A DNA stretch of 64,000 nt from Candidatus Hermodarchaeota archaeon (lineage in GTDB: Archaea; Asgardarchaeota; Hermodarchaeia; Hermodarchaeales; Hermodarchaeaceae). The position numbers and the translations under genes were made by a program. Positions 6,986 to 45,445 of the stretch are shown piece by piece (the stretch's first letter is position 1; each line of letters begins with the position of its first letter). The notes under the pieces are model-generated. The model was not told the origin of the DNA. It worked only from the letters and a program-made list of their open reading frames with translations, and searched no databases. The stretch covers positions 1 through 64,000 of the forward strand of contig JAEOTO010000011.1 of assembly GCA_016839805.1 (NCBI GenBank), given 5' to 3'.

Positions 6986-7093
6986 TGGTGGGCCGGGCGT
7001 GAATTGAACACGCGACCTCCGCCGTTTCCTCGTATCCTACCAATGGGAGCGGGATTCAGTGAGAGCGGCGTCATACCACTAGACTACCGGCCC
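6986..7093 (-). tRNA. tRNA-Glu (CUC) with one intron
   Basis: On the minus strand the acceptor strand GGGCCGG (7093-7087) pairs with CCGGCCC (6996-6990), followed by discriminator A and an encoded CCA. The anticodon stem CGCCG/CGGCG flanks a loop CTCTCA-A with anticodon CTC at 7063-7061. A T-arm GCGTG-TTCAATT-CACGC is complete. A 34-base intron (about 7059-7026) sits after position 37, the canonical archaeal site; inside it ATCC and GGAT can pair, as an inner stem of a relaxed bulge-helix-bulge would. The gene overlaps no real CDS; an antisense open frame across it is a shadow. Confidence 0.93.
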
Positions 7094-45068: not shown

Positions 45069-45177
45069 TTTGCTGAAACCTCAAATAATTGGTTGATTCC
45101 GTGATTCACCTCTCCCGATATATAGCTCTTTAGTTGTCACCCTCTGAATGCTTGGAGGCAGGGACACCCCGAAGCAG

Positions 45178-45186
45178 TTTTAAACC
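45178..45186 (+). promoter_or_regulatory. TATA-like box upstream of tRNA-Leu
   Basis: TTTTAAACC lies 29-37 bases before the first GCGGGGG at 45215 and about 75 before the assigned tRNA start at 45258. Archaeal TATA boxes sit about 26 bases before transcription start, so initiation near 45207-45212 would fit. This suggests a 5' leader or a mature end nearer the first GCGGGGG. Confidence 0.4.
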
Positions 45187-45257
45187 TTTAATTGCCCTAC
45201 CAATTTACACCTTTGCGGGGGACCCTTCCGAAGGGGTCTTTGCCGCCTAAATAGGTG

Positions 45258-45445
45258 GCGGGGGTTTCTACCCTGTGTAGACCCTACAGCCAAGCCTGGT
45301 TAACGGCGCAGGAGTCACCGGCAATGGCCTGGTGACGGCGTTACTCAAGATCTAACCAGGTAAAGGAGACATCCTGTCCGGCAGCGGTTCGAGGGTTCGA
45401 AGGAGTCCCGTTCTGCGAGCTCCGAAATTCCCTCCCCCCGCACCA
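45258..45445 (+). tRNA. tRNA-Leu (CAA) with four apparent introns
   Basis: Acceptor GCGGGGG (45258-45264) pairs with CCCCCGC (45435-45441), then A and encoded CCA. D-arm GCC...GGC is at 45289-45307; anticodon stem CAGGA (45309-45313) and TCCTG (45372-45376); loop CTCAAGA with CAA at 45346-45348; variable arm CCG-GCAG-CGG; T-stem GAGGG (45391-45395) and CCCTC (45430-45434) with loop TTCGAAT. Four stretches must be removed to make this tRNA: about 45267-45288 (before position 10), 45314-45343 (before the anticodon loop, containing the perfect 6-bp stem GTCACC/GGTGAC), 45350-45370 (canonical 37/38) and 45402-45428 (T-loop, with GGAG/CTCC). Without them the four-arm structure is exact. Intron ends are accurate to a base or two. 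Confidence 0.87.

Follow-up and report, generated by a model that had tools for sequence, protein, structure and literature searches.

RESULTS

A tRNA-Leu(CAA) gene interrupted by four introns

Does the locus at positions 45258 to 45445 (forward strand) of the window, by which we mean the whole 64,000-nucleotide (nt) stretch of DNA analyzed, encode a functional tRNA-Leu(CAA), and how is its precursor organized? The window comes from a Hermodarchaeota (Asgard) MAG of 2.31 Mb that is 86.7% complete. When GTDB species genomes were searched with the gene adjacent to the tRNA, all matching records were from Hermodarchaeota. The gene, in which the CCA is encoded, has as neighbors an open reading frame (ORF) resembling glycine-cleavage H protein and a 216-amino-acid ORF, and this gene order is retained in seven relatives. 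Neither ARAGORN nor the Rfam tRNA model detects the gene in the raw sequence, because introns interrupt it. Removal of 22, 30, 21, and 27 nt gives an 88-nt tRNA-Leu(CAA), including the CCA, whose scored stems (acceptor, D, anticodon, and T) are free of mispairs, and ARAGORN calls the spliced sequence tRNA-Leu(caa) in all eight orthologs.

The initial annotation had proposed four segments of these lengths, with the arms pairing upon their removal. We re-derived them with an independent solver that splices bulge-helix-bulge (BHB) candidates and scores the resulting cloverleaves; starting from the raw sequence it returns exactly these four introns. The seven relatives have the same four. Among dinucleotide shuffles, none of 240 reached a mature score of 45 or more (the real gene scores 53 and the best shuffle 40); one shuffle exceeded the penalized total of the real gene, but with a poorer tRNA. 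From these sequence comparisons we put at roughly 90% the probability that this is a functional, single-copy tRNA-Leu(CAA) gene whose precursor carries four spliced BHB introns, at positions 8/9, 30/31, 37/38, and 59/60 (Table 1). An intact second tRNA-Leu(CAA), which the initial annotation would have counted against the gene, was not found in the MAG; as the assembly is incomplete, an additional copy may be unassembled, and the genome-wide tRNA tally, which combines Rfam matches with inspection, is blind to tRNAs as fragmented as this one.

Splice-motif geometry

All cut-site pairs were scored for the BHB motif without regard to tRNA structure, using a rule of a 4-nt exon-1 helix strand, two bulge bases, the cut, one bulge base, and the intron helix, mirrored on the 3' side. 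The top three of the 3415 candidates in the gene are introns 4 (59/60), 2 (30/31), and 1 (8/9), in that order, and intron 3 (37/38) ranks fourth of 1919 once introns 1, 2, and 4 are removed. The outer helix at 37/38 is the anticodon stem, which is absent until intron 2 is excised, and splicing would therefore follow a partly fixed order. The arrangement of 3-nt bulge, 4-bp helix, and 3-nt bulge is strict at 8/9 and 59/60 and relaxed at 30/31 and 37/38, where three of four pairs form, although 37/38 reaches four of four in genomes G001 and G003. We counted against the motifs the mismatched fourth pair of the central helix (H) in introns 2 and 3 and the outer helix (h) of intron 2, which has just 2 bp. 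With BHB or relaxed BHB motifs at all four junctions, together with compensatory changes, the segments support the initial proposal of archaeal BHB introns, and the folds whose absence from the junctions would have spoken against it are present.

Two of the initially assigned positions hold (37/38 and the T-loop, here 59/60), and the other two, 9/10 and 31/32, shift by one base on BHB geometry and comparison. A junction at 9/10 was rejected on BHB geometry and would make position 9 differ in three of eight genomes; the 8/9 placement forms a perfect 4-bp helix (G3-G6 with CCCY) and is the sole one that leaves position 9 identical in all eight. Similarly, 31/32 was rejected because of its BHB geometry and the unequal mature sequences that result, and 30/31 is a one-base slide from it. 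In segment 4 the initial annotation had singled out a GGAG/CTCC stem; the helices relevant to EndA are instead UUCG/CGAA and GAG/CUC.

Table 1. Features of the tRNA-Leu(CAA) locus, with window coordinates (H, central helix; h, outer helix; h', intron helix)
Feature	Coordinates	Strand	Remarks
Promoter CGAAGCAGTTTTAAA, BRE/TATA-like	45170..45184	+	Distance from its end: 30 nt to the upstream copy, 73 nt to the true 5' end
Upstream copy of acceptor 5' strand (GCGGGGG), possible placeholder	45215..45221	+	Identical in 8/8 Leu(CAA) genes
Leader spacer	45222..45257	+	Conserved hairpins GACCCUU/AGGGGUC and GCCGCC/GGUGGC (8-ortholog alignment, folds)
Exon 1, tRNA positions 1-8, GCGGGGGU	45258..45265	+	
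Intron 1, 22 nt, 8/9	45266..45287	+	Strict BHB; H = G3-G6/CCCU, h' = UCUAC/GUAGA
Exon 2, positions 9-30 (D arm and beginning of anticodon stem)	45288..45312	+	
Intron 2, 30 nt, 30/31	45313..45342	+	Relaxed BHB; H = CGC/GCG plus A.G, h' = GUCACC/GGUGAC
Exon 3, positions 31-37 (A CU CAA G), anticodon CAA	45343..45349	+	
Intron 3, 21 nt, canonical 37/38	45350..45370	+	Relaxed BHB; H = CUC/GAG, extended to 4 bp in G001 and G003
Exon 4, positions 38-59 (anticodon 3' strand, variable arm, 5' part of T arm)	45371..45401	+	
Intron 4, 27 nt, T-loop 59/60	45402..45428	+	Strict BHB; h = T stem, H = UUCG/CGAA, h' = GAGU/GCUC
Exon 5, positions 60-73 and encoded CCA	45429..45445	+	

Conservation of exons and introns

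All four introns are present at the same sites in eight of eight Hermodarchaeota genomes (this one and seven relatives, in two genera of one family). The mature tRNA of the relatives is identical to this one at 86 to 88 of 88 positions (98 to 100%), while identity in the introns falls to about half between genera, and intron 1 is 22 to 23 nt in one group and 34 nt in the other. Pairing is nevertheless kept by compensatory changes in h' of intron 1 (A-U to C-G and C-G to G-C) and of intron 2 (G-C to A-U and A-U to G-C), and in H of intron 4 a U-A pair becomes U-G. A decayed or unspliced pseudogene is highly improbable given the near-invariant exons in eight genomes, the covarying introns, the retention of promoter and CCA, and the failure to find another Leu(CAA) in the genome, even though insertions make up half of the gene and standard tRNA finders miss it.

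Where Leu(CAA) could be solved in other Asgard families it has no intron (G027, G015, and G035), one (G008), or two (G034). The initial suggestion of a history of intron gain is supported by these counts of zero to two, and by a tRNA-His 8/9 intron that varies within one genus (see below).

A second copy of the acceptor strand upstream of the gene

The initial annotation overlooked a conserved upstream GCGGGGG, which repeats the 5' strand of the acceptor stem and starts 43 nt before the gene's own strand. A promoter element, CGAAGCARTTTTAA, is conserved in most orthologs and in tRNA-Leu(TAA). Judged by eye, other tRNA genes of the genome have a TATA-like box that ends about 24 to 34 nt upstream of the mature 5' end, and the upstream copy occupies the tRNA start that this spacing predicts. 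The paralogous tRNA-Leu(TAA) has the same 8/9 intron and a GCGGGGG copy with a diverged spacer (loci L039/L121, at G000 C22:28900-29150, L120, and L123-L127), and a GCGGGG copy precedes 15 of 15 Leu(CAA) and Leu(TAA) genes with an 8/9 intron in all eight Hermodarchaeota genomes. Leu(GAG) and Leu(TAG) share this acceptor sequence but have neither an 8/9 intron nor an upstream copy, and the pattern of copy plus 8/9 intron had no matches in 219 other Asgard genomes. We also note a second tRNA-Leu(TAA)-like copy (L164, G002 C36:2450-3100) whose 5' part looks decayed.

Between genera the spacer separating the two copies is identical at only 23 to 25 of 38 to 39 positions, while the upstream copy stays conserved. 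Each of the leader hairpins takes in one or two bases of the flanking GCGGGGG copies.

The 8/9 BHB motif requires G3-G6 in its central helix, and G1 and C2 together with leader bases in its outer helix. Forming it ties up G1-G6 of the acceptor 5' strand as well as bases of the D stem, and we propose that the gene keeps an upstream copy for this reason: as a placeholder, the copy would occupy the 3' acceptor strand and leave the real 5' strand free for the BHB motif. We advance this tentatively, at somewhat under even odds, from sequence and predicted folds. Pairing of the upstream copy with CCCCCGC is predicted with probabilities of 0.81 to 0.99 in Leu(CAA). In predicted folds that omit the leader, the partner of the 3' strand is the downstream strand, at about 0.9 or more in the Leu genes (0.23 in two Leu(TAA)) and at 0.99 to 1.00 in the five His genes tested, and the 8/9 central helix has a probability close to zero. 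When the leader is included, the upstream copy is predicted to capture the 3' strand in both Leu and His (0.80 to 1.00), and in most Leu(CAA) genes the 8/9 central helix rises by one to two orders of magnitude. Two observations count against the placeholder: even with the leader the central helix stays low (0.3 to 12% in Leu(CAA), and at most 0.12 overall), and thermodynamic folds favor the upstream copy even after intron 1 is removed, when RNase P would need the true 5' strand to have regained the 3' strand.

The parallel in tRNA-His

In five Hermodarchaeota genomes tRNA-His likewise combines an 8/9-type intron with an upstream copy (tRNA-His loci examined, L139-L145). The copy reads GCCGGGG or GCTGGGA, and both versions can pair with UCCCGGC of the 3' strand, in part through wobble pairs. 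In G005 and G007, which share a genus with G006, the His gene lacks both intron and copy, and its mature 5' end is at the place taken by the copy in G006. In another Asgard family (f13), two His genes (L165 and L166) have an intron at 9/10 and a copy 15 to 16 nt upstream, with a different spacer. Searching for His 8/9 introns gave no matches with a strict pattern and two with a looser one. Since Leu(CAA) and Leu(TAA) are paralogous, the association between copy and intron amounts to two independent gene families. A further apparent case, tRNA-Lys(TTT), was rejected, as it is a D-loop intron mis-solved by the program.

The main rival to the placeholder holds that the gene has five introns, with the 43-nt stretch between the GCGGGGG copies being an acceptor-stem intron and the upstream copy the real 5' exon. 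In its favor, the promoter is spaced from the upstream copy as is usual for a tRNA, predicted folds make this copy the partner of the 3' strand, the intronless sister His genes have their mature 5' end in its place, and a 3/4 acceptor intron is known from Thermoproteales (PMC4090602). However, a good BHB motif is found at no cut position from 0 to 7 in any of the eight orthologs; register 5/6 alone has at least three of four pairs in all eight, with h of 0 to 1 and h' of 1 to 3. Moreover, U8 adjoins the downstream copy alone, and it is the downstream copy that stays canonical, whereas the upstream copy drifts to wobble-only pairing (GCTGGGA in His) or loses G7 (Leu(TAA) of G001). We thus regard a fifth intron as unlikely. 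A single large intron reaching from the upstream copy to A9 was rejected, as position 8 would then be A, C, or G rather than U.

It is also conceivable, at perhaps one chance in three, that the upstream copy is a functionless by-product of local duplication during intron gain. Tandem duplication is expected to give exactly this arrangement, and copy and intron co-occur in the His gene of G006 and are both missing from its sister genes. This does not readily account for retention of the copy in 15 Leu genes of two genera despite the diverging spacer, or for recurrence of the arrangement, with a different spacer, in His genes of another Asgard family. If our tentative reading holds, the placeholder would be a previously undescribed way to reconcile the acceptor stem with a conflicting splice motif, used by Hermodarchaeota for tRNA-Leu and tRNA-His and by a second Asgard family for tRNA-His.

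Splicing enzymes and a possible maturation pathway

The genome has two EndA genes. EndA 1 matches the Aeropyrum pernix alpha subunit (3p1z_B) across nearly its full length (E value, 1.8e-45) and keeps the presumed catalytic Tyr/His/Lys and the crenarchaea-specific loop with a residue aligned to Lys44. EndA 2, which is without the catalytic His and is similar to other EndA subunits, would, as expected, be the beta subunit. By sequence the enzyme is of the crenarchaeal alpha-beta kind with a specificity loop, a type that accepts noncanonical sites. The broad-specificity EndA of the initial annotation is plausible and has the support of the sequence (alpha and beta subunits, loop, and Lys44 equivalent), but does not by itself explain the gene: at least one EndA gene is present in 39 of 39 genomes searched, and two in most, and the loop motif GIRKPK is present in most readable Asgard alpha subunits. 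Because the type is nearly phylum-wide, including genomes without such tRNA genes, the enzyme permits the four-intron gene and does not explain it.

RtcB and RNase P RNA are both present in the genome. We envisage a pathway in which alpha-beta EndA with its specificity loop would cut each of the four introns, with the 37/38 cut awaiting excision of intron 2, and the upstream copy would stay paired with the acceptor 3' strand up to the excision of intron 1. RtcB would ligate the exons, and RNase P would presumably strip the leader once intron 1 has been removed.

Comparison with known multi-intron tRNAs

According to the reviews examined, an archaeal tRNA gene has at most three introns (PMC8450103 and PMC4033280), a number that this gene exceeds, and our literature search found no archaeal tRNA gene with four. 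Multi-intron tRNAs are described from Thermoproteales, an example being the Pyrobaculum islandicum tRNA-Pro(UGG), which is interrupted at 25/26, 37/38, and 56/57. The Hermodarchaeota gene resembles these in its several short BHB introns at canonical and noncanonical sites, its relaxed motifs, and the alpha-beta EndA of its host, and differs in having four introns rather than at most three; its host is an Asgard archaeon and no relative of Thermoproteales. Both 30/31 and 59/60 are known intron sites, while 8/9 is not among the Thermoproteales sites given in the available part of PMC4090602. The extreme acceptor case of that report, the Thermoproteales 3/4 introns, shares with the tRNA-Leu gene an intron near the tRNA 5' end; here, however, the site is 8/9 and there is a separate upstream copy of the acceptor strand, and the literature examined describes no such copy.

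In the Asgard Atabeyarchaeia and Freyarchaeia, 92 to 95% of tRNA genes bear introns and over half of the tRNA genes have multiple introns, also at noncanonical sites (PMC11291895). Intron richness in Asgard is therefore not new, and, as the text of that report gives no maximum per gene, a four-intron gene is possible in those lineages too. They belong to other classes, and in contrast to them, most solved tRNAs of this genome have no intron or one. What is new, as far as the literature examined shows, is a four-intron gene conserved across a family and an acceptor copy tied to 8/9 introns. Multiple introns in a single tRNA gene have thus persisted for the span of a family in an Asgard lineage, kin of eukaryotes, and the tRNA-His pairs with and without the intron in one genus are material for studying intron gain. 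If the upstream copy is indeed a placeholder, it would explain an intron at a site where acceptor stem and splice motif are in competition, and software for tRNA annotation would have to allow for such copies.

Introns in other tRNA genes

Among the solvable tRNAs of this genome, about a dozen are intronless and a similar number have a single intron; there are two introns each in Pro(TGG) and Lys(CTT), and three in tRNA-His, as seen from comparison of relatives. Leu(CAA), with four, is the extreme among the solved tRNAs. T-loop introns near 59/60 with similar central helices are also seen in Leu(TAG) of G007 and G005 (L150 and L151), Gly(CCC) (L026), and Lys(CTT) (L137), and these recurring T-loop introns of Hermodarchaeota tRNAs perhaps stem from intron transposition. 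Elsewhere in the window, tRNA-Val(CAC) (6989 to 7093, reverse strand) has a long intron close to the anticodon.
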